A stretch of 64,000 bases of DNA, taken from NCBI GenBank assembly GCA_030145245.1, contig JAQYWC010000003.1, forward strand, positions 1-64,000. Reading direction: 5' to 3'. Position numbers and translations under genes: made by a program. Positions 1 to 10,705 of the stretch are shown here, piece by piece (position 1 is the first letter of the stretch; each line of letters starts with the position of its first letter). This stretch comes from Desulfobacterium sp. (GTDB taxonomy: Bacteria > Desulfobacterota > Desulfobacteria > Desulfobacterales > Desulfobacteraceae). The notes beneath the pieces are model-generated. The model was not told where the DNA came from, did not search any database, and saw nothing but the letters and a program-made list of their open reading frames with translations.

Positions 1-564
1 AAAGGCAGTGACATCTTTGCAAGGAACCATAACTTCATCATCGGAAGCAATATTGTCGCGGTCAGGGAAGCAGATGCCAAGGCCAGGGAGATGCAATTGA
101 ACACCGTTGTGTTGTCCTCCCAGATCATGGGGGAGGCAAAGGTTACAGCCGTCAATTATGCCGGCATCTGCATGGATATCAAAAGGAGCGAGTTGCTGGC
201 CCAACGGCCTGCCTGCATCATTGCCGGCGGAGAGACCACCGTCACCATAAAAGGAACCGGCAAGGGCGGTCGCAATCAGGAGATGGCCCTGGCCTTTTTA
301 AAGTATATCGCCGAAAACAAAAGCTACATGGAAGGGGTCTATTTTCTCTCCGCCGCAACCGACGGTAATGACGGCCCCACAGACGCGGCAGGAGGGTTTG
401 CCTGCCTGGAGCTGCTTGACCCTGCACCGGAAACCTAATCGGAAATCAACGATTGCCTGAAAAACAACGACTCCTACCATTATTTAAAGGAAAAGGGCCT
501 GCTCTATGTCACATGCCCGACAAACACCAATGTTTGTGATCTGCAGATCATGATCGTCGCCTGA
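1..564 (+). pseudogene. Glycerate 2-kinase (MOFRL type), 3' part, broken by a stop codon
   Basis: The frame is open from the first base, so the gene starts outside the window. The product resembles the C-terminal half of MOFRL-family glycerate 2-kinases, which phosphorylate D-glycerate in glyoxylate and serine metabolism. Visible family features are IIAGGETTVTIKGTGKGGRNQE and SAATDGNDGPTDAAGG. A TAA at 436-438 interrupts the frame just after DPAPET. The same frame then continues with the expected family C-terminus (NNDSYHYL, then TNTNVCDLQIMIV) to a TGA at 562-564. Both sides of the stop look native, so a single base change (for example CAA to TAA) is the simplest explanation. UAA is not a known recoding signal for selenocysteine or pyrrolysine. 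The truncated product would lack about 42 residues. A sequencing error cannot be excluded. Confidence 0.8.
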
Positions 565-581
565 TACCTCCCATGATATGC

Positions 582-610
582 TGGGTGAGTCCGCCTAAAA
601 GGCTCACCCA
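582..610 (+). terminator. Hairpin after the glycerate kinase
   Basis: An 8-bp perfect stem (TGGGTGAG at 582-589 with CTCACCCA at 603-610) sits 17 bases after the distal stop codon. The T-run is displaced (CTCTTTTTC about 8 bases downstream), so this is a plausible but imperfect intrinsic terminator. Confidence 0.5.
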
Positions 611-1410
611 CCCATACTCTTTTTCAATATCTATTCATTTAGTAATATAACAGTGTCAACGCTTTGATTTCGAGCAGACTATCTATCCTTTGATCAGCAC
701 TCATTTTCTTATGTGAATCCATGAGTATCTTGGGCATCCAGATGTATGCAAGTAAGTGCAACTGTCAGGTGGACCTAAAAGCGACTACTGGGAGATCAAA
801 TTATGGGGCAGAAACTATATTTTGTGGCCCTACAATCATAGACATAAAACTCTCTTTATTCAATTCCCAAAATTTATAAAAAACGCTTAACTGAATAACC
901 AATTTTCTGGGGTAGATCACACGTAGAACTACGTTTCGTTTGAAATCTCGATCATATTGTTTTTTTTGTCTTGAATTCATACTATTTCCTCCGTATTTTA
1001 CAATGTCGGGAGAGGGGCAGTACCCGGTTGTTATAAGAATGGTCTTGAGGAAGGTTTTTATATTGACAACCAAGAACAGGAGTGTTAATAGATTATACTA
1101 ATAATCTTTATTGTTTTAAAATCTCGATTGTATCTTCTTCTTTCATGTTCTAAGCAGCTAATCCTATTTTTGAAACTATATCTCTTTCTTCTACTCTCAA
1201 TTGGCTTTACATAGCACTCATTCCTATGAGAGGAGGGTATCTTATTATATAGGGAACGTGTGTTTACTGATAATGTTTCAGGATATCAAGAAAGGGACTT
1301 CTTGGTTAACATGTCTGTTTCATTTAACCTTGCGATTCTTTGAAACTCTATAACATAAAGTTCTGACATAGATCTCATTATTTAACGTCTTAGGAATAGG
1401 AAATATTTAA
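611..1410. other. AT-rich intergenic region with transposase remnant
   Basis: About 800 bases with no intact gene. It is visibly more AT-rich than the flanking metabolic genes. The only recognisable content is an IS3-type OrfA remnant on the minus strand (801-980). I see nothing else I can support. Confidence 0.6.
801..980 (-). pseudogene. IS3-family transposase OrfA N-terminal remnant
   Basis: Reading the minus strand from ATG at 980, with an upstream GGAGGAAAT ribosome-binding site, the product begins MNSRQKKQYDRDFKRNVV. This matches the start of IS3-type OrfA helix-turn-helix proteins (K-Y-D-x-E-F-K). After about 20 residues the similarity disappears. A neighbouring frame then gives a sequence resembling the helix-turn-helix LGI segment but with stops. 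This suggests frameshift and decay. No OrfB and no terminal repeats could be identified, so the element is a remnant. The family call rests on a short motif. Confidence 0.5.
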
Positions 1411-1899
1411 GTGAATAGAAAAACCTATGATTACGAAAGAAAAAAACATACAATGCATCTTTTTGTATTTGCAATGATATGTTTGCTATTCACAACTATC
1501 TATGGATGTCCGGCCCTAAAGGCCGTATTTGAAGACCAAAATGAAGAATATGGTTGCTGGTGTAAAAGTTATAGACTATCTAAAGTGGAAATCAATGGCG
1601 AGATAGAAGCCGTTGATGACTGGGATGAAATCTGTAAAAAACACGTTCAATGTTACATTAATAGTTCTGAAAGTACTTGGACTCTATGTGATTCTCAATT
1701 TTTAATAAATATATTTTTTACAGGGGCAAAAAATAAGATTATGCCCATCGGTGTTAAAAACGTCTTCGAATATTATTGGCAGGATCATTATCAATCTGAA
1801 ATCCCAGAGTCTTTTTATAACATTTCTGGAAGCAAAATATATTTTTATAACAAGACGAAAAAATGTGTTAGACAGGATGTTCCAGTATCAAGTCCATAA
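1411..1899 (+). CDS. Putative lipoprotein, unknown function
   Basis: A 162-residue protein starting at GTG 1411; an alternative ATG is at 1453. The N-terminus is positively charged (residues 1-14), followed by a hydrophobic segment and a possible lipobox ending at Cys33 (TTIYGC). This suggests an exported lipoprotein. The mature part is cysteine-rich (C33, a GCWC pair near residue 48, and several more), so disulfides in the periplasm are possible. I do not recognise a family. It is AT-rich, like the two genes that follow, and may belong to the same acquired cassette as the Trypco2-like protein and secreted protease. A gap of about 120 bases separates it from the next gene, so it may be transcribed separately. 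Confidence 0.55.
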   Translation: MNRKTYDYERKKHTMHLFVFAMICLLFTTIYGCPALKAVFEDQNEEYGCWCKSYRLSKVEINGEIEAVDDWDEICKKHVQCYINSSESTWTLCDSQFLINIFFTGAKNKIMPIGVKNVFEYYWQDHYQSEIPESFYNISGSKIYFYNKTKKCVRQDVPVSSP

Positions 1900-2020
1900 T
1901 CTCAAAAAAATATAGTTTTTTGTTGTTTGCCCAAGTTTTCAAGCCATTATTTATTTTACTTTCCTAAGTTTGTTTGTCCTGAAATGGACCCTGTCCATAG
2001 TCAATCGCAGGAGGTGAAAA

Positions 2021-2617
2021 ATGGAGAGGTCATTAATAGTCTTTTTTATTATTTTAGGTTTATCCTTTCAAACAATATTTCCTTCTATTGGAAATACTGA
2101 TGATAATTCAATCACTCTAAATGACTTTAAGAAAGAAATACAGGCGGCACTCTTCTTTGCACAAAAACAGGCAAACTCTCCCCCCTTTTTTTTAGTAAAA
2201 AAAATAGACCTTTCAATAGGGGTTACTGATGAAAAAAGCGGCGAAGCTGGAATAAAGATACCTGTCTTACCAATAGGTGGAAAGGTAAGTGGTGAATTTG
2301 CAAATAAAAGTTTTGAAAAAATTGCAGTGACAATGAAGCCTGTTACTAAAATTGCGGTATCAGGAGATTTAAAGGTAAGTTTTGTTGAAGCTTTAAAAAG
2401 TGTGAAAAAAGCCTTCAAAGAGGAGAAAGAGAATACAGGATTTATAGTGACTAATTTTGAATATAGGACAAAATTTCAAATTAGAAAAAAGATGGGAGCA
2501 ATGCTGGAAATTTTCATCATAGATGCCAGTGCTGAGGGTCTAAAAGAATATACTCATACAATTGTGATATCTATGTGTGAAACAAAAAATAAACTAAATT
2601 GTGCATCAGATGAATAA
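2021..2617 (+). CDS. Secreted protein with two tandem Trypco2-like domains
   Basis: A 198-residue protein with a strong ribosome-binding site (AGGAGGTG) and an N-terminal hydrophobic signal peptide (about residues 3-24). Residues about 31-107 follow the layout of the trypsin-co-occurring domain 2 family. There is an amphipathic helix (ITLNDFKKEIQAALFFA), a strand ending in IDLSIGV, then a GEAGIKIPVLPIGGKVSG segment and a final IAVTMKPV strand. Residues about 118-186 appear to repeat the same helix-strand plan (VSFVEALKSVKKAF, FEYRTKFQI, GAMLEIFIIDASAEG, THTIVISM). Known members sit beside trypsin-like peptidases in predicted conflict systems, and the next gene here is exactly such a peptidase. 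The domain call comes from pattern reading, not a profile search. The export signal is unusual for such a protein. Periplasmic location and partnership with the protease are inferences. Confidence 0.6.
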   Translation: MERSLIVFFIILGLSFQTIFPSIGNTDDNSITLNDFKKEIQAALFFAQKQANSPPFFLVKKIDLSIGVTDEKSGEAGIKIPVLPIGGKVSGEFANKSFEKIAVTMKPVTKIAVSGDLKVSFVEALKSVKKAFKEEKENTGFIVTNFEYRTKFQIRKKMGAMLEIFIIDASAEGLKEYTHTIVISMCETKNKLNCASDE

Positions 2618-2630
2618 TCATGGAGATCAA

Positions 2631-3881
2631 ATGTTTGATCTGAAAAATAAATATAAGTTTTTGATTCTGTTGATCATTTGCCTCTTGCCCTCTGAATTGT
2701 TGTCTTCATTTAGTGATATAGAGTTGGATTTAAAAGAAGCGATTGTAGTAATCGCTGATCAAAACAATAAGCCCATAGGTACGGGGACTTTCATAAACGA
2801 AAAAGGATTAATAATAACGGCTAAACATGTAGTGGAAGACTCTATTGAAAATACAAAAGCGGATTCATATTTGATCAGTACTCCCTATAGGCTCTCTAAT
2901 GATAATAAGTTTGATAATGCAGAATTAGTTGCCGTACATCCGTATTTTGATGTAGCAATTTTAAAGGCAATAGCACCAGGAGATAAAATAAAGTCAATAA
3001 AAATAGGGACTTCAAAGACTTTGGATAAAGAAAAAGATAAGCTTTATTTGTTTGGACACAAAATTATATCTTCACTTGAAGAAATTGATCTTTATAAGTC
3101 TTTAACTGCAAATATAAACGACTTAGATCACAACGGTTATATCAAAGTTAGTCAAGGGGGAGCATCCGGAATGAGCGGGGGGCCAGTTTTCAATTCTGAT
3201 GGGAAACTAGTTGGCATAATCAAGCATGTTGAAAGTTCGGAATCTACTGTAGTACCGATTGATTCTATAATAGATGGTTTTAAAATCCTTGGAATACATC
3301 TTAATTTTAATACCCACGCAAGAGAATCCGATACTATAGCTGAAATATATAATAAAATAAATGAGTTAGAAATAATGGCTCTTGATTTAAATAGTAATTT
3401 AATATGGTATGCAACTCCGAAGATGAACTGTAGGAATAATAAGAAATGTGATTTAGAACTTACATTCCATTACGGGAAAAATTTCATAACACAACCTGAT
3501 TTAGATAATACTCTCTTTAACTTAGAGATTAAACCGTATATAGAAGGACTTGATCATGTAGATCCAGATGAACTTTCTTTCAATGAAAGAGAATGGTTTT
3601 TACCTGAAGATAATTCAGTAACTTTTCGGAATATATTGTTGTCGATAGAAGATAAGATCAACAGCTGTAAAAAAACAAAAAAGATGGGTATTAATGTCGA
3701 AAAATCTTTAAAAATTATTTCAGTAACTATTTCTTTTAAAACATCTTTCAATAAATCGTTAAGTGGGGTTGAGGTAGAACGAAAAGTCTGTTTCACGATA
3801 CCCTTTGAGAGTTTAAAAAAGCTTAGCAAAAGTCCACCATATGTGGGTTTAAATTGTCATATGGATCAAATAAAAGAATGA
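2631..3881 (+). CDS. Secreted trypsin-like serine protease (S1/HtrA-like fold)
   Basis: A 416-residue protein. I chose ATG 2631 because GGAG at 2622-2625 precedes it and a signal peptide follows at once (FDLKNKYKFLILLIICLLP). A GTG at 2601 would overlap the upstream gene. The protease domain spans about residues 33-225. A complete catalytic triad is visible: His66 (TAKHVV), Asp107 (HPYFDVAI) and Ser182 (GMSGGPVF), with an oxyanion loop GGASGMSGG. About 190 residues follow with no recognised domain, including Cys pairs; I see no PDZ domain, unlike DegP. The gene begins 13 bases after the Trypco2-like gene and is likely co-transcribed. It shares that gene's AT-rich composition. Likely substrates are unknown. 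A housekeeping periplasmic protease is the alternative, but the missing PDZ and the neighbour argue for a specialised role. Confidence 0.75.
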   Translation: MFDLKNKYKFLILLIICLLPSELLSSFSDIELDLKEAIVVIADQNNKPIGTGTFINEKGLIITAKHVVEDSIENTKADSYLISTPYRLSNDNKFDNAELVAVHPYFDVAILKAIAPGDKIKSIKIGTSKTLDKEKDKLYLFGHKIISSLEEIDLYKSLTANINDLDHNGYIKVSQGGASGMSGGPVFNSDGKLVGIIKHVESSESTVVPIDSIIDGFKILGIHLNFNTHARESDTIAEIYNKINELEIMALDLNSNLIWYATPKMNCRNNKKCDLELTFHYGKNFITQPDLDNTLFNLEIKPYIEGLDHVDPDELSFNEREWFLPEDNSVTFRNILLSIEDKINSCKKTKKMGINVEKSLKIISVTISFKTSFNKSLSGVEVERKVCFTIPFESLKKLSKSPPYVGLNCHMDQIKE

Positions 3882-4089
3882 AAATTAACCAAAACCGTTC
3901 CTATAACTTTCGTTGTAAAAGCTATATTTGTTATTTAACTTTTTAAGTAGCCCTATTATTGTGATTTTTATCTAAACATATAGCTTTTTGAAAATCAATT
4001 TTGAAACATAAGTTGAAGCGTTCAATAAAGGTATCATCGGTGACTGTCAAATTTTTTAAAAGGGGCAGGACTAGTGGAAGCTGTTGCCC

Positions 4090-7000
4090 TTATTTTCCCT
4101 TGCTTGATATCCCGAGTTTTTCCATCCTGCTGTAAAGCGTGGTTCGTTTCATGTTCAGGATTTCTGCCGCACCCTTTGGGCCGCTGATCTTTCCACCGGT
4201 TTCTTTCAAGATATACTCAATATACCGACGCTGGAGGGTCTCCATGGTGGGGGTGTCGGAAAACGGATGGGTCATATCAGCGGCTGACCGGGATTTGAGA
4301 ACCAATTCCAATCGGTCCCCGCTGGACAGGATAACCCCGCGTTCAATGACATTGCTTAACTCCCTGACATTTCCAGGCCAATGGTAGTCCACCAGCCGTG
4401 CTTCATCCTCCGGGGACAGGTTCAACCCGGAAAATTGGTATTTCTTAGTATAACGGGCCAGAAAATGACGGGCCAGGATCAATATGTCTTTTTTTCTTTC
4501 CCGTAAAGGGGGCACATGGATCGGGACAATGCTGATCCGGTAAAACAGGTCTTCCCTGAAATCGCCTTTAGCGACCTCGGCGGCAAGATCCCGGTTGGTT
4601 GCCGCAACCAGTCGAAAATCGGAATGGATGGGACGACTGCCGCCGATGCGGATAAATGTTTTTTCCTGGAGTACCCGCAGCAGCTTGGCCTGGAGGGGTT
4701 TTGGCATTTCTCCGATTTCATCGATAAACAACGTACCCTGGTGGGCCAGCTCTATCCTTCCCTGTTTCTGTCTGTCCGCTCCGGTGAAAGATCCTTTTTC
4801 ATGACCGAAGAGTTCGCTTTCCACCAGGTTCTCCGGAATGGTCGTGGCATCAATTATAATGAAGGCTTTATTGCGCCGGGGGCTTAATTGATGAAGGCGC
4901 CGTGCCATTAACTCCTTGCCGACACCGGTTTCGCCATGGACCAGCACGGTGGAGTCGGAACCGGCCACCTGGTCGGCTTTTTTCAGGATCTTTGCCATTT
5001 GCCGGCTTTCTGCCAGCAGTTCCTGTACCGGGGAGGAGGCCCCGGAAGAGATGGCTTCCAGGGGCGATGTCCTGGCATTGGATATTAAGGTTTCTATTTT
5101 TTCAATGCGGTCGATATATAAGCTCAGGTGATCGGCCAGGCGTTCCAGAATGGATTCATTAAGAAAGCCGAAACTATCGTTTAAATATGAGTTGTCATAG
5201 TAAAGAACCCCTGTGGTTTTGCCCCTGAGCTTCAAGGGGATGCACAACAGGGAAAAGGCATTATAAGCGTTCAGTTTTCTGTTGGGGTTTTTTGACCGGA
5301 TAAGGATCGGTTTTTCTGCTTTGAAACACCGCCGTACGGCATTCATGTTATTGGAAAAAAACGGGCTTCCGGCTTCCGTTTGCGTTAAATTCCGGCCGGA
5401 CGCAAGGGACAGCGATTTTGTTTTCCGGTCTTCAGCCCAGAACAGTCCGCCTTTTTCGGCACAAAACAGCCGGTTCATGGTGGCGACCATTCGATGGAAA
5501 AAATCAGTCATTTCCAGGGACGGAACCAAGTCGGCCGTGGCCAGCAATAGTTGATGGATATCTATTGTGGAAGGGCTTGCCGGTGTTTTATCCGGGGTAG
5601 GGGATGTCTCCAAAAGCGCCCGGATGCCATCCGGGAAGTATTCCTCCCAAAGTCCGGATAACCCTTTTCGTGCTTTTCCAGCCAGATTGACGGCCTCTTG
5701 CCGGTTGCCGGCGTTTAACGCAAACCTGGCCAGCTCTATCCGGGTTTTGGCCAATTGAACCGGGTCCCCGGCAGACTTGAGCCAGGTTTCGCTCCGGATC
5801 AACAGGGCTTTGGTCATATTGGGTTCCGTACTTTTAATTTTCGTAAGATACGCTTTTATCTGTCTGGAATCCGTAGAATCAGGATATTGAGCGATCAGAC
5901 GCAGCATGACTCCCCGGATATGCACACTGGGATCATTGATCATGCGGTCAATGCTTTCCAGGTATTCTTTTTCCGAAAGAAAGGCATATCCCAGATGTTT
6001 CAGTTTAAATATCATTTCCAGGAACCATGGCGATGACAACTGATAGATGATGTTTGATTGTTTTGCTTTTTGGACCACCTCTTTAAACATGGTGCAGGCC
6101 TTTTCGTAATTTCCCTTCAGGAATTGCCGGTATGCCAGGTAGCCCTTTGCAAAATACCAGCCCAGGATATTGCCGTGGCTTTCTGCGTCTTCCAATGCCC
6201 CTTCAAGATGGAGCAAGGACTCTTTTTCCTTTTTGATCAGGAGAAGGATCATTCCCAGTGATGCCCTCAGTGTGGCGGCATAGCCATAGTTCTTTTCCCG
6301 GTGGGCGCTTCTCCAGGCGCTGTCGAAATTACCGATGGCCTTATGAAATTGTCCCAGGTAAGCCGCACAGTGTCCATAAAAAATAGGGGCGGAAGGATTG
6401 ACCACATGGCCTTGCTGTCGTGTTTCAAAAGAGGTGAATCCTGTCTCGAAATAGGTCATGGCTTCCGCAAAACGGCCCTGCATATAGTAATACAGCGCCA
6501 GGAATTCAGACGCCCGAACCCGGATATCCTCATCCCCCAGATCCTTGATGACGGCTTCTGCCTGCTTCATCAATTCCACCGCTTTTTGTCTCTGGTTGCC
6601 AATATAAAAAAGCCGGCCCAGGTGGAGATCTATTAAGGCCCTGACCCGGCGATCCCCCAGATGTTCAGCTGCGGAAGCGGCTTTTTCGAGAAACCGGCGG
6701 GCCGCGGCAAACTCTCTGCCCTGGGAAAATGTCAGATCCGAAAAGGTCAAAACATGATCTATCAACCCCCGGTTTTCTTTGGCATCCCCCCTTTTCGAGG
6801 TTAATCCGGCAAGCCCTTTTTTGTAAAACAGGAGCGCCTTTGCAGGCTGGTGGGTCCCAATGAATTTTTGGGCAAGGTCAATTTCAAGCTGTCCCCCTTT
6901 TTTGCGGGTCGAGCCACAGATCAGGTTGTAGTGAATGTCAAGGGAGAGCTGATCAATAAGCCCCAGCCGGTTTAACCGGGCCAGCAGGCTTGAAATTTGC

Positions 7001-7251
7001 TCTTCGGTGTTGATGCCTGAAAATTGCTCTTTAACCTTGGCCGGCAGTTGTTTTCCGATGCAATAGACATTGCTTTTTATTTTTTCAAGCAGACCGATAT
7101 TCTGGGCTCTTTCCAGGGCGTCCAGAAGCTGACTGGGTAAAAGGGGGGATACCTCTCCTGCAACATCCAGGGCAATAGGTGCCCCCATGGCATGGAAGAC
7201 AGACAGGAATTTCCATTGTTCCGGCGAAAAATCAAACCCTGTTTTCGACAT
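4090..7251 (-). CDS. Sigma-54-dependent activator with TPR-like and GAF sensory regions
   Basis: A 1053-residue regulator. About residues 130-560 are helical repeats resembling tetratricopeptide repeats. About 575-735 form a GAF-like domain. The AAA+ sigma-54 interaction domain covers about 750-985: Walker A GETGVGKE at 773-780, the sigma-54 contact loop GSFTGA at 820-825 (variant of GAFTGA), Walker B TLFIDEIGE near 840-848, and an arginine-finger region FREDLFYR. A Fis-type helix-turn-helix lies at about 1010-1050 (AEILNMKRTTLYSRM). There is no receiver domain, so control is presumably by ligand binding to the GAF or TPR part or by protein contact, not by phosphorylation. It is transcribed divergently from the acyl-CoA operon at 7580, whose upstream region carries a dyad and a GG-N10-GC promoter candidate. 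It most likely activates that operon; the ligand may be a pathway substrate or CoA ester. Confidence 0.9.
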   Translation of the reverse strand: MSKTGFDFSPEQWKFLSVFHAMGAPIALDVAGEVSPLLPSQLLDALERAQNIGLLEKIKSNVYCIGKQLPAKVKEQFSGINTEEQISSLLARLNRLGLIDQLSLDIHYNLICGSTRKKGGQLEIDLAQKFIGTHQPAKALLFYKKGLAGLTSKRGDAKENRGLIDHVLTFSDLTFSQGREFAAARRFLEKAASAAEHLGDRRVRALIDLHLGRLFYIGNQRQKAVELMKQAEAVIKDLGDEDIRVRASEFLALYYYMQGRFAEAMTYFETGFTSFETRQQGHVVNPSAPIFYGHCAAYLGQFHKAIGNFDSAWRSAHREKNYGYAATLRASLGMILLLIKKEKESLLHLEGALEDAESHGNILGWYFAKGYLAYRQFLKGNYEKACTMFKEVVQKAKQSNIIYQLSSPWFLEMIFKLKHLGYAFLSEKEYLESIDRMINDPSVHIRGVMLRLIAQYPDSTDSRQIKAYLTKIKSTEPNMTKALLIRSETWLKSAGDPVQLAKTRIELARFALNAGNRQEAVNLAGKARKGLSGLWEEYFPDGIRALLETSPTPDKTPASPSTIDIHQLLLATADLVPSLEMTDFFHRMVATMNRLFCAEKGGLFWAEDRKTKSLSLASGRNLTQTEAGSPFFSNNMNAVRRCFKAEKPILIRSKNPNRKLNAYNAFSLLCIPLKLRGKTTGVLYYDNSYLNDSFGFLNESILERLADHLSLYIDRIEKIETLISNARTSPLEAISSGASSPVQELLAESRQMAKILKKADQVAGSDSTVLVHGETGVGKELMARRLHQLSPRRNKAFIIIDATTIPENLVESELFGHEKGSFTGADRQKQGRIELAHQGTLFIDEIGEMPKPLQAKLLRVLQEKTFIRIGGSRPIHSDFRLVAATNRDLAAEVAKGDFREDLFYRISIVPIHVPPLRERKKDILILARHFLARYTKKYQFSGLNLSPEDEARLVDYHWPGNVRELSNVIERGVILSSGDRLELVLKSRSAADMTHPFSDTPTMETLQRRYIEYILKETGGKISGPKGAAEILNMKRTTLYSRMEKLGISSKGK

Positions 7252-7325
7252 CTCTTTTCCTTTGGGGATTATCCCCGGTGCTGAAGGTGTTAAGGCAGGC
7301 TATCCAGTCGGAAATCAGTTGTCAA

Positions 7326-7346
7326 GTCGAAATCCGGTATTTCGAC
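7326..7346. promoter_or_regulatory. Perfect 8-bp dyad, candidate activator binding site
   Basis: GTCGAAAT (7326-7333), a 5-base spacer and ATTTCGAC (7339-7346) form a perfect inverted repeat. It lies between the sigma-54 activator gene and the CoA ligase operon, about 150 bases upstream of the proposed sigma-54 promoter. That is a usual distance for an upstream activating sequence. A degenerate copy (GAAATCGCCGGTATT) occurs at about 7489-7503. Binding by the adjacent Fis-type regulator is inferred. Confidence 0.5.
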
Positions 7347-7496
7347 ATTGGGTGTCCGTATATGGGCATTTTTCATTGGGAAGAGATAAGTTTTTAACAA
7401 ATACTCGGTTTCTATGGAACCCGTAAAAAGTAATTGCCCAAAAATATCCTAGGGTATCAGCACGTTGTCGATGGTTTGCTTGTTTGTTGAAATCGC

Positions 7497-7513
7497 CGGT
7501 ATTGTTTTTGCGA
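7497..7513 (+). promoter_or_regulatory. Candidate sigma-54 (-24/-12) promoter
   Basis: GG at 7498-7499, exactly ten bases, then GC at 7510-7511, within CGGTATTGTTTTTGC. The -12 half (TTTGC) fits the sigma-54 consensus TTGC well. The -24 half (CGGTAT against TGGCAC) fits only in its GG. It lies 67 bases before the ATG at 7580 and beside a sigma-54 activator gene, which raises its plausibility. Confidence 0.45.
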
Positions 7514-7579
7514 TAGTGTATTGGAAATTAAAAATACGGTTTCAACAGAAGACTTAACCCGTGGACGGCAAGGGAAAAC

Positions 7580-9169
7580 ATGCTTAACAATGGACCCGAC
7601 ATCAATATTGCTTTTCAACTTTTTGCCATGGCGGAAAAGGCTCCGGATATTCCCATACTGACCTTTGAACAAAAGGGGCAGCCGGATGAGATATTGACCT
7701 ATGGAGACCTGGCCCGAAAAGGAAACCGGCTTGCCGGCGCCCTTCGGTCGGCGGGGATTGTTCCGGGGGATACCGTTGCCGTGGTCATGGGCAACAGGCC
7801 CGAGACCATTATTTCCCTCTACGCCGGTCTTGCCACAGGCGCTGTCATGTTGCCCCTTGATCCTGGGTTCGGCTGGGAAAAGCTGGCCTATCTTTTATGC
7901 CGTTGCCATGCCCGGGGAATCATCTTTTCAGAAGAGGGAACCGATACCCCGGGGGATATTCTACCGGCATTGGCGGACATAAAGATCCTGGGAGTAAAAC
8001 GAAGAAAAGGGCCCTCCATCTCCCTACGGTATCCGGACCTTGACGACATTTTTGAAAATGGACGGGAAAAAGAAGTTGTCCCGGAAAAAGAGGCGGCCCA
8101 CGACTTGGCCATGATACTCCACACATCCGGGACCACGGGGATTCCCAAGGGGGTCGGAATCAAAACCCGGTCCTTGCATCATTATGTGGTGATGGCCAGG
8201 GAGATTTTTAGATACACCGCCCAAGATCGTCTTTATACGGGGTTGCCCCTGACCCATGGGAATTCATATTCCGTCACCGTTATTCCGTCCCTGCTTCTGG
8301 GCATTCCCGCTGTGATTGGTCGATATTTCGACACTGACCGAATCTGGGATATTTGCAATCGGTATGGATGCACCAGTTTTTCCCTGCTCGGCGGATTGGC
8401 CGCCGACATCTGCAGGCGGCCGCGGCAACCCTTTGATGCCGACCATCCGGTAACCAAGGTTGTCAGCGCCGGTACCCCTCGCCATATATGGAAGGCCTTT
8501 GAGCAAAGATTCAATGTGACCATCCATGAATGGTACGCAACCCTTGAGGGGGGCTTTGCCCACAATCCTCCGGGTATCGGCCCTGTGGGATCATTCGGCA
8601 AACCCGTGGATGGTTTTTTTGAATTCAAAGTTGTGGGAGGGGGGGATCAGGAATGCGTGGCCGGTGAAATCGGAGAACTCTTGTTTCGCTGTGTGGATAA
8701 AAAAGCTGCCATGGCATATCAGGTTCCTCCACAGGATGCCGGAATTTCGGGTTCCGACGGATGGCACCGGACCGGGGATATGGTTCATCGGGATACCCAC
8801 GGATGGTATTTCTTTGATTTCAGAAAAGAACAGGAATTTCTGCGCCATGGGGAACATTTCGCAGCCCAGGAGGTGGAAAAGGTGCTCCTTGACCATCCGG
8901 AAATCGGAGAGGCCTGTGTTTACGGGGTTGATTCCATTTCCGGGGCCACCGGGGAACAGGACCTGGTGGCGGCCATTATTCCCTGTTCCGGCATAACGCC
9001 GGACGTCATCGGAATATTTGAATTTTGCTCAAATCGATTGCCGGCTTCGGCCCGTCCCACTTTTCTCCAACTGGTTAAGTCAATACCCAGGACCCCTACG
9101 GAAAAAGTGATTCGCCGTTTGCTAAAGGAAGGATTCGATCCGGCAAACCCCTATATCTATCAATTCTAA
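7580..9169 (+). CDS. AMP-dependent acyl-CoA ligase (CaiC-like), first copy
   Basis: A 529-residue adenylate-forming enzyme that would activate a carboxylic acid to its CoA thioester with ATP. The phosphate-binding motif HTSGTTGIPKG lies at about residues 180-191, the adenine motif region at IHEWYATLEGG, and the TGD motif at HRTGDMVHRD. The hinge reads DFRKEQEF in place of the usual DRxKD. The adenylation lysine is Lys509 (TPTEKVIR). It is the first gene of a same-strand operon of CoA-ester enzymes. It is clearly paralogous to the ligase at 10776 (shared IWDIC...CTSFSLLGG and GPVGSFGKP). Two ligases with different C-terminal hinges suggest two substrates or two steps. The substrate cannot be told from sequence; a carnitine-like or branched or cyclic acid is possible. 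Confidence 0.85.
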   Translation: MLNNGPDINIAFQLFAMAEKAPDIPILTFEQKGQPDEILTYGDLARKGNRLAGALRSAGIVPGDTVAVVMGNRPETIISLYAGLATGAVMLPLDPGFGWEKLAYLLCRCHARGIIFSEEGTDTPGDILPALADIKILGVKRRKGPSISLRYPDLDDIFENGREKEVVPEKEAAHDLAMILHTSGTTGIPKGVGIKTRSLHHYVVMAREIFRYTAQDRLYTGLPLTHGNSYSVTVIPSLLLGIPAVIGRYFDTDRIWDICNRYGCTSFSLLGGLAADICRRPRQPFDADHPVTKVVSAGTPRHIWKAFEQRFNVTIHEWYATLEGGFAHNPPGIGPVGSFGKPVDGFFEFKVVGGGDQECVAGEIGELLFRCVDKKAAMAYQVPPQDAGISGSDGWHRTGDMVHRDTHGWYFFDFRKEQEFLRHGEHFAAQEVEKVLLDHPEIGEACVYGVDSISGATGEQDLVAAIIPCSGITPDVIGIFEFCSNRLPASARPTFLQLVKSIPRTPTEKVIRRLLKEGFDPANPYIYQF

Positions 9170-9190
9170 TAAAAAGTGAAGGAGTCCGGG

Positions 9191-10705
9191 ATGATTTCAG
9201 CGTCGGAAAAGAGGCAATTATTAAACAGGGAACCCTGTTTTGAGGACATTACAAATAGTCTGCGGGCCACGGGATCCCAGCCAAAAGGGATTATCAAAGA
9301 AGCCCGGGACGTCATTGCCATTGCCAGAAAATTCGCTGATGAGGTGGTCAGGCCCCTGGTCCTGGACCTGGATCTGAAAATCACCCGGGACCATGATTAC
9401 CTGCCATGGGAATTTGTCCAACAGGCCAATGAGTGGGGGTTCTACACCATGTTTATTCCCCGGATTTTCGGTGGCCAGGGATATAACATCTCCACGGTGG
9501 GTTTTTTTGTCGAGGAAATTGCATCGGTCTGTCTTGCCATGGGCAATCTCATCGGAGTGCATTATCTGGGGTATATAAAACTGATCGCGTCATGGAATAT
9601 GAAAATGATCAACAGGCTTTCACGGGAGGTGGTTAAGGGCGAGAAAAGTAAAAAGCCCTGCCTGCTCTCCCTTGCCATGACCGAGCCCAATGCCGGTACG
9701 GATTCACAGAACTCCGAATTTATGAACACGGGAAACCTGGGATGCCATGCCCGGAAAGTGGATGGGGGGTATCTGATCAGCGGCACCAAAATTTTCATCT
9801 CCTGCGGCCACCTTTCCACCTGGCATCTTGTTCATGCCTATACCGACCTTGACCGGGCCGCGGAGAATACGGTCATGCTGGCGGTTAAAACCGGTACCAA
9901 AGGGTTTTCCTTCGGCCGAACGGAAAAGAAAATGGGACAGAAAGGAAGTATCGCAAGCGAATTGATTTTTGACGACTGCTTTGTGCCGGACAAGGATGTC
10001 TGTGTTGAGAATGAACAGACAAACCGGCTTTCACGCTCTTTTAAAGAAACCAATGCCCAGATCTTTGCCTATATCTGGTCCACTTCAAGGGCCGCCGGGG
10101 TTGGATATATGGGAGTGGCAGCTGCCAGGGGCGCATTTGAACAGGCCCTTGGGTTTGCATCCACCCAGAAAACAGACGGCACCCTTTTGATCAACCAGGA
10201 GTGGTGCCAAAGTATGCTGGCCCGGATGTACATGAATGTGGCCGTGGCCAGGACCGCCTGTTTCGAAGGGACCCAGGCCTGTGCCATGCACGGCCTGTGG
10301 CGAATCCTGAACATAAAACCCATTTACTATCTAATCCGCTACACTCCGGCTCCGGTGCTGGATATGATTTTTAACCGGTTGTGCGAAACGCCTTTCATGA
10401 CCTGGCTTTTCAGGAAACTCTGCTTTAATCTTCAAAAGAATGAAGAGATCGACCGCATCGACGGGTGGGGCTCCCTGGCCAAGGTGGCCGGCACCGATGC
10501 CGGTATAAAGAACTGTCATATGGCCCTGGAACTCATGGGCCAGGCCGGTCTCCGCCATGACCAGGGGATGGAAAAAATCCTGAGGGATGCCAAGCTGCTC
10601 CAGATCTATGAGGGAACCAATGAAATCAACCGGATCAACGTATTTAAGCGGCTGATTGCAAGATCCTGTGATCATGCCGTGGCTTTTTCTCCGTCAAATA
10701 TTTAG
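9191..10705 (+). CDS. Acyl-CoA dehydrogenase, first copy
   Basis: A 504-residue FAD enzyme of the acyl-CoA dehydrogenase family, which introduces a C2-C3 double bond and passes electrons to ETF. I chose ATG 9191 because AAGGAG at 9177-9182 sits eight bases before it. An in-frame GTG lies at 9176. Family signatures are LAMTEPNAGTDS (FAD region), GTKIFIS and the C-terminal IYEGTNEINR. The usual catalytic glutamate is present as Glu474. It is longer than typical members (about 380-400 residues) because of extra sequence at about 355-420 before the final helical region, which may shape the substrate pocket or an oligomer contact. It follows the first CoA ligase by 21 bases, so the two are probably translated from one message. 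Confidence 0.88.
   Translation: MISASEKRQLLNREPCFEDITNSLRATGSQPKGIIKEARDVIAIARKFADEVVRPLVLDLDLKITRDHDYLPWEFVQQANEWGFYTMFIPRIFGGQGYNISTVGFFVEEIASVCLAMGNLIGVHYLGYIKLIASWNMKMINRLSREVVKGEKSKKPCLLSLAMTEPNAGTDSQNSEFMNTGNLGCHARKVDGGYLISGTKIFISCGHLSTWHLVHAYTDLDRAAENTVMLAVKTGTKGFSFGRTEKKMGQKGSIASELIFDDCFVPDKDVCVENEQTNRLSRSFKETNAQIFAYIWSTSRAAGVGYMGVAAARGAFEQALGFASTQKTDGTLLINQEWCQSMLARMYMNVAVARTACFEGTQACAMHGLWRILNIKPIYYLIRYTPAPVLDMIFNRLCETPFMTWLFRKLCFNLQKNEEIDRIDGWGSLAKVAGTDAGIKNCHMALELMGQAGLRHDQGMEKILRDAKLLQIYEGTNEINRINVFKRLIARSCDHAVAFSPSNI

Follow-up and report, generated by a model that had tools for sequence, protein, structure and literature searches.

An exported-looking Trypco2 protein and an adjoining trypsin-fold protease in an accessory slot of a Desulfobacterium genome

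Three AT-rich genes near one end of a 64,000-nucleotide stretch of Desulfobacterium sp. DNA (hereafter the window) raise the question of whether a Trypco2 protein and a trypsin-like protease form a unit that resides outside of the cytoplasm, and how many of the clustered genes belong to it. The G+C content is 0.32 over positions 1411-3881, compared to 0.50 for the whole window. The three plus-strand open reading frames (ORFs) reported in an initial annotation of this DNA are indeed present, and they span 1411-1899 (162 amino acids), 2021-2617 (198 amino acids) and 2601 or 2631 to 3881 (426 or 416 amino acids, respectively). The features relevant to the analysis are the following.

565-4088, no strand: accessory cargo slot, from a glycerate kinase (MOFRL) gene to a sigma-54 regulator gene, delimited by blastn against contig L093
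1411-1899, plus strand: 162-amino-acid exported-looking, Cys-rich protein (P0001) with a weak, sub-threshold resemblance to phospholipase A2 (PF00068)
2009-2016, plus strand: Shine-Dalgarno-like AGGAGGTG, 4 bases upstream of the Trypco2 ATG, read from the sequence
2021-2617, plus strand: 198-amino-acid exported-looking Trypco2 protein (P0002; PF19631, 33.2 bits)
2622-2625, plus strand: GGAG ahead of the protease ATG at 2631, read from the sequence
2631-3881, plus strand: 416-amino-acid exported-looking trypsin-fold (HtrA/S1C-like) protease (P0003; PF13365, 70.6 bits)
4090-7251, minus strand: TPR-GAF-sigma-54 regulator (Pfam), the right border of the slot, outside the cassette and conserved in the same-genus genome G002

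When positions 1-9000 of the window are compared by blastn with contig L093 of G002, the two sequences are 87.8% identical over 1-564 and 92.7% identical over 4089-6116, and nothing aligns between 564 and 4089 at an E-value of 1e-3. The borders are sharp and fall where the flanking genes end. In G002 the slot measures about 1.8 kb and carries a different ORF, encoding an exported-looking protein of 249 amino acids with no Pfam match. Because the same flanks enclose another gene in G002, the cassette is accessory DNA in a variable slot that was either gained here or lost in G002. The best matches to the flanking genes in G001, another genome of the genus, are 43-44% identical and lie about 80 kb apart, and therefore the arrangement is not common to G001. 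The C-terminus of the G002 slot protein (L093:2413-3162, minus strand) has a tail that we take to resemble a PEP-CTERM-type sorting signal.

No additional ORF of at least 120 codons is found in the slot besides those of the cassette, and scans for promoters and terminators return no more candidates than do shuffled sequences. The annotated insertion sequence (IS) remnant to the left of the cassette did not hold up. The 90-codon ORF at 801-1073 (minus strand) has no Pfam match at E-values up to 0.1, and neither of its two weak plasmid matches is a transposase. An IS origin for positions 565-1410 was likewise unsupported, since the region is single-copy in its own genome and missing from two genomes of the same genus. 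The left neighbor was assigned as glycerate kinase from its G002 homologue. That homologue is open throughout, whereas the window gene carries an in-frame stop at 436-438 and looks broken.

Simple hydropathy analysis reveals a strongly hydrophobic segment at the N-terminus of all three ORF products, ahead of each domain, and the earlier claim that all parts are exported is kept as a prediction from these signal-like N-termini. The Trypco2 and protease genes are separated by a 13-nt gap, or they overlap, depending on the protease start codon that is used. Two alternative in-frame starts upstream of ATG 2631, GTG 2601 and ATG 2610, both overlap the Trypco2 stop codon.

The 198-residue protein matches the Pfam Trypco2 family (PF19631) over residues 33-107 with 33.2 bits against a curated cut-off of 24.2, which settles an identity previously proposed from pattern reading. 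The remainder of the protein probably represents a second, degenerate copy of the domain, judging from its sequence. This putative copy (residues about 113-190) scores 13.3 bits with a local Trypco2 profile, a value reached by none of 2000 shuffled sequences (best 11.9), where the training set of the profile was chosen by us and shuffling is a lenient control. An earlier profile made without any second copies gave this half of the window protein only 9.3 bits, which is under the HMMER inclusion threshold, and Pfam returns no match of its own for it. PADLOC finds no match for this protein or for the product of the first gene. A structure model of the Trypco2 protein, built from only two input sequences, has a mean pLDDT of 30 and was not used for fold searches.

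The assignment of the third product as a trypsin-fold protease with a full His-Asp-Ser triad is borne out by a Trypsin_2 (PF13365) match of 70.6 bits over residues 50-196, by a Trypsin match of 33.7 bits, and by the presence of H66, D107 and S182. The annotation also described a protease that lacks PDZ domains and ends in a domain of about 190 residues belonging to no known family, and both statements are supported by our searches. No PDZ family is detected by Pfam at E-values up to 1 with either the whole protease or its C-terminal part, and the C-terminal region (about residues 225-416) has no match in Pfam or PHROGs at the same limit. Sequence matches of this domain to PDB entries, among them a designed repeat protein (1e-5) and acetylcholine receptors (at least 0.03), were read as chance. 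The possibility that the domain is itself Trypco2-like gained no support, with an hhalign probability of 0.2%.

A model of the protease has a mean pLDDT of 57, with block means of 73-87 across residues 261-370 except for one block at 50. The modelled catalytic region is similar to HtrA1 (3tjn_B; Z 10.6, rmsd 2.3, 89 aligned residues) and DegQ, in comparisons that mostly covered residues 55-227. The top Foldseek match is the S1C-NTF2 bidomain of Clostridium thermocellum RsgI9 (7sjy), with an E-value of 6.3e-11 but a TM-score of 0.24 and an rmsd of 16.

The strongest evidence that the two genes belong together comes from a second locus. In genome G444 of the same order (contig L049), the gene for an exported-looking Trypco2 protein runs into a downstream protease gene by a 4-nt ATGA overlap, and identical proteins are encoded in CP070697.1 (L053), from the Desulfobacterales bin589 metagenome-assembled genome. 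Gene order and close spacing are thus the same at both loci. Each L053 protein exceeds its Pfam cut-off in its own right, with 34.5 bits for Trypco2 and 43.3 bits for Trypsin_2. Aligned end to end, the window and L053 proteases show 31% identity, and the similarity extends through the C-terminal domain (22% identity if that domain is compared by itself); the catalytic triad is invariant in their alignment. The two Trypco2 proteins are 26% identical and have a common C-terminal CET-N-C tail. The second half of the L053 Trypco2 protein again scores above all 2000 shuffles with the local profile (10.2 bits) and reaches 13.6 bits in Pfam, which is below the cut-off. Paired cysteines in the window Trypco2 protein (C186/C194) and in the protease C-terminal domain (C387/C409) also have counterparts at the second locus. 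However, an argument for disulfides from these pairs is soft, because three of the five cysteines of the mature window protease have no counterpart in L053. The second cassette lies between IS21-type genes (Mu-transpos_C_2 and IstB) and a TRAP solute-binding protein gene (DctP).

This second locus was picked by a Trypco2 search alone, and its protease neighbor emerged independently. Moreover, G444 has nine Trypsin_2 places in 6.8 Mb, so that adjacency to a Trypco2 gene by chance would be unlikely. Because the two genes recur side by side in a second genome, with an exported-looking Trypco2 product and a protease that ends in the same C-terminal domain, the Trypco2-protease pair is a real unit. 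Both findings on which the initial annotation had staked this pairing, a profile match of the 198-residue protein to Trypco2 and a homologous exported-looking pair in another genome, are at hand.

The unit is rare. When 389 genomes of the order were searched with a profile of the two proteases, 154 gave a match, but the alignment spans the whole protein in only 2 (775 and 795 bits), and the next-best match, at 43.6 bits, covers the protease domain only. Both full-length proteases adjoin Trypco2, and because the profile was built from these same two proteins the result shows rarity rather than independent confirmation. With P0003 as the query, 54 of 395 genomes of the phylum match, and the match extends beyond the protease domain solely in the genome from which the query came.

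A scan of genome contigs with the profile A1 recovered six loci, of which L053 is full-length and the other five match in the protease domain alone; the same type of scan with P0002 found no relative, and such pattern scans miss relatives that lack the two motifs used. Viral contigs yielded nothing for P0003, A1 or A2, and a 36-residue match between P0002 and the phage-like contig L005 was read as chance. Plasmid searches gave two weak matches to P0003, in the protease domain, and none to P0001. The query P0002 recovered one Trypco2 gene, from Nostoc, which used as a query returned only itself, and the L002 Trypco2 query returned none. The exported pair is absent among these plasmid matches. 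On the Nostoc plasmid, the Trypco2 gene (L004:1125-1508) lies between genes for an alpha/beta hydrolase and a CHAT-domain protein.

Trypco2 itself is more widely distributed than the pair. Among the 389 sampled genomes of the order, 8 contain a Trypco2 match at E-values up to 0.001 (6 over the cut-off), and the protein is exported-looking by hydropathy in all of these but G728 and G557. Two Pfam Trypco2 stretches are present in each of the exported-looking proteins of G473, G506 and G672, and the protein of G539 (L045), exported-looking by eye, has a stop inside its second copy. Across the phylum, 3 of 395 sampled genomes have a match at E-values up to 0.001 (2 over the cut-off), and the other two, G201 and G338, likewise encode hydrophobic N-termini. 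A Trypsin_2 gene is nearby in G000, G444 and G557. The remaining five of the eight genomes have none nearby, and four of these carry an exported-looking Trypco2. Contig ends limit the view 177 bases downstream of the Trypco2 gene in G672, where a protease would be possible, and about 1 kb upstream in G539; the downstream side is visible in all of the five genomes other than G672. A protease neighbor is therefore not required, given that exported-looking Trypco2 proteins lack one in several genomes.

Other neighborhoods of these genes vary. Two genomes of one genus encode tandem-domain Trypco2 proteins that look exported and have no protease neighbor (L046:7792-8364 and L048:7812-8384), and the former gene adjoins a large gene (L046:8627-12826) with matches to SpvB and FG-GAP repeats in its first 658 codons. 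The Trypco2 gene of G728 has no signal-like start and sits beside a pentapeptide-repeat ion-channel gene (L047:8168-8542 and 9063-10091).

What might the pair do? One explanation is that it represents an envelope quality-control or nutrient protease, in essence an HtrA-like enzyme with a regulatory subunit that was gained as ordinary accessory metabolism. The nearest solved catalytic domains, by sequence and by model, are those of MucD, DegS, DegQ and HtrA1, and the window protein shares with this S1C group both an exported trypsin fold and the triad. The DctP gene next to the second locus is also consistent with such a role. However, the window protease differs from HtrA, DegP, DegS and MucD in that it has no PDZ match, carries its own C-terminal domain, and has a dedicated Trypco2 neighbor. 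This C-terminal domain is unmatched in the other proteases of the 389 order genomes and of the 395 phylum genomes, and the HtrA-type and MamO models of NCBIfam score at most 32.9 bits, well short of their cut-offs. We know of no HtrA system with a Trypco2 partner. On balance we regard this explanation as somewhat unlikely.

A second explanation is an exported conflict or surveillance system, as the initial annotation proposed. In this scheme, the pair would detect a phage, a toxin or a rival at the envelope, and the protease would in turn act against either the invader or a protein of the host. Trypco2 was named from its occurrence beside trypsin-like peptidases in predicted VMAP conflict systems (PMC7159879), and Trypco1 and Trypco2 have been called adapters in loci with diversity-generating retroelements, where some sensor proteins of related loci are predicted to be secreted or periplasmic (PMC10907252). 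The protease domain matches the last third of the PADLOC profile RT-Protease_XI (333-505 of 510) with 66 bits, exceeding the best HtrA-type score in NCBIfam, and also matches PDC-M35A with 32.4 bits. The sharp borders of the AT-rich slot and the sporadic distribution of Trypco2 point in the same direction. Yet the PADLOC matches involve the protease part only, with no reverse transcriptase as in RT-Protease_XI, P0002 has no match in phages, the plasmid matches include no exported pair, and the scans of viral contigs gave no true relative. Furthermore, accessory status is no proof of defense.

In the literature, Trypco2 belongs to loci that have MoxR, vWA, VMAP or a comparable component at their core (PMC7159879, PMC10907252). 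The VMAP (vWA-MoxR) ternary systems resemble the window locus in that a Trypco2 domain adjoins a trypsin-like peptidase (PMC7159879), and differ from it in that here both proteins have signal-like N-termini, Trypco2 is apparently tandem, and the protease has another C-terminal domain. No MoxR, vWA or VMAP gene occurs among slot ORFs of at least 120 codons or as an immediate neighbor, the gene to the right included, and no ternary core is seen within that range. A genome-wide search with the VMAP-C profile found nothing in two genomes, and likewise nothing in 14 control genomes. The G557 locus (L051) also has a Trypsin_2 gene, about 2.4 kb from a Trypco2-like gene, but the product of the latter has no signal-like N-terminus and scores 22.9 bits, below the cut-off. 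The relevant passages of PMC7159879 and PMC10907252 describe no exported Trypco2 and no stand-alone exported pair, and their supplementary tables may hold some. The best reading is that the window pair is an exported variant of the known Trypco2-trypsin pairing. A defense or surveillance role is a possibility, and one that we consider unlikely.

The first gene is probably not a core part of the cassette. Its product scores 21.4 bits against the phospholipase A2 family (PF00068; E-value 3.7e-4), where the cut-off of 32.1 excludes it from membership, and phospholipase A2 chains in the PDB match it at E-values of 0.25-0.31, hardly better than unrelated arrestins at 0.35. This protein had been annotated as a Cys-rich lipoprotein. 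The cysteines and the exported-looking N-terminus are evident, and lipidation is doubtful because the lipobox, IYGC, is one that we presume to be poor. Matches to the first gene occur in three of the 389 order genomes, namely its own and two that are marginal (E-values of 0.001 and 0.004) and that sit inside frames of 519 and 482 codons without the cysteines of the first gene. Very improbable, then, is a three-gene effector cassette in which the protease releases or activates a phospholipase A2-like payload, a scheme suggested by the shared strand and base composition and by the YGCWC...DDWDEICKKHVQCY pattern of the sub-threshold match, and opposed by Val in place of the Asp that follows His in phospholipase A2 chains (HV for HD), by the 121-nt gap between the first gene and the Trypco2 gene, and by failure to find the first gene in G444. 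The proposed cassette of three genes is accordingly reduced to the Trypco2-protease pair, which recurs at the second locus, while the first gene is missing there. Our best explanation, held with slightly more confidence than doubt when taken as a whole, is that the core unit consists of two tightly spaced genes for predicted exported proteins and not of three.

For the pair itself, we narrowly favor an envelope HtrA-like protease without PDZ domains, acting with a dedicated partner in which one Trypco2 domain is clear and a second is probable; against this reading, no more than two loci carry the pair. Other HtrA-like proteases stay restrained until a problem is signaled by a partner or a ligand. 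By hydropathy, both proteins would be translocated across the inner membrane. The Trypco2 protein may then bind its neighbor, the contact probably lying in the C-terminal domain seen only in the two paired proteases, and might either set the activity of the protease or deliver its substrate. As the product of accessory DNA, the protease would most likely cut foreign or damaged envelope proteins under some condition.

The occurrence of an exported tandem form suggests that the Trypco2 family also extends beyond the cytoplasm. A stand-alone exported pair, free of the remaining machinery of larger loci, offers a small system in which to test directly what Trypco2 does for trypsin-like proteases. 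More speculatively, and with the odds well against it in our estimation, the exported tandem Trypco2 branch and its protease could constitute a minimal, two-gene envelope sensor-protease, in which the paired Trypco2 domains would perceive intruders or damage beyond the cytoplasm and release the protease into action. If true, the logic of cytoplasmic conflict systems would have been carried into the periplasm without ATP.
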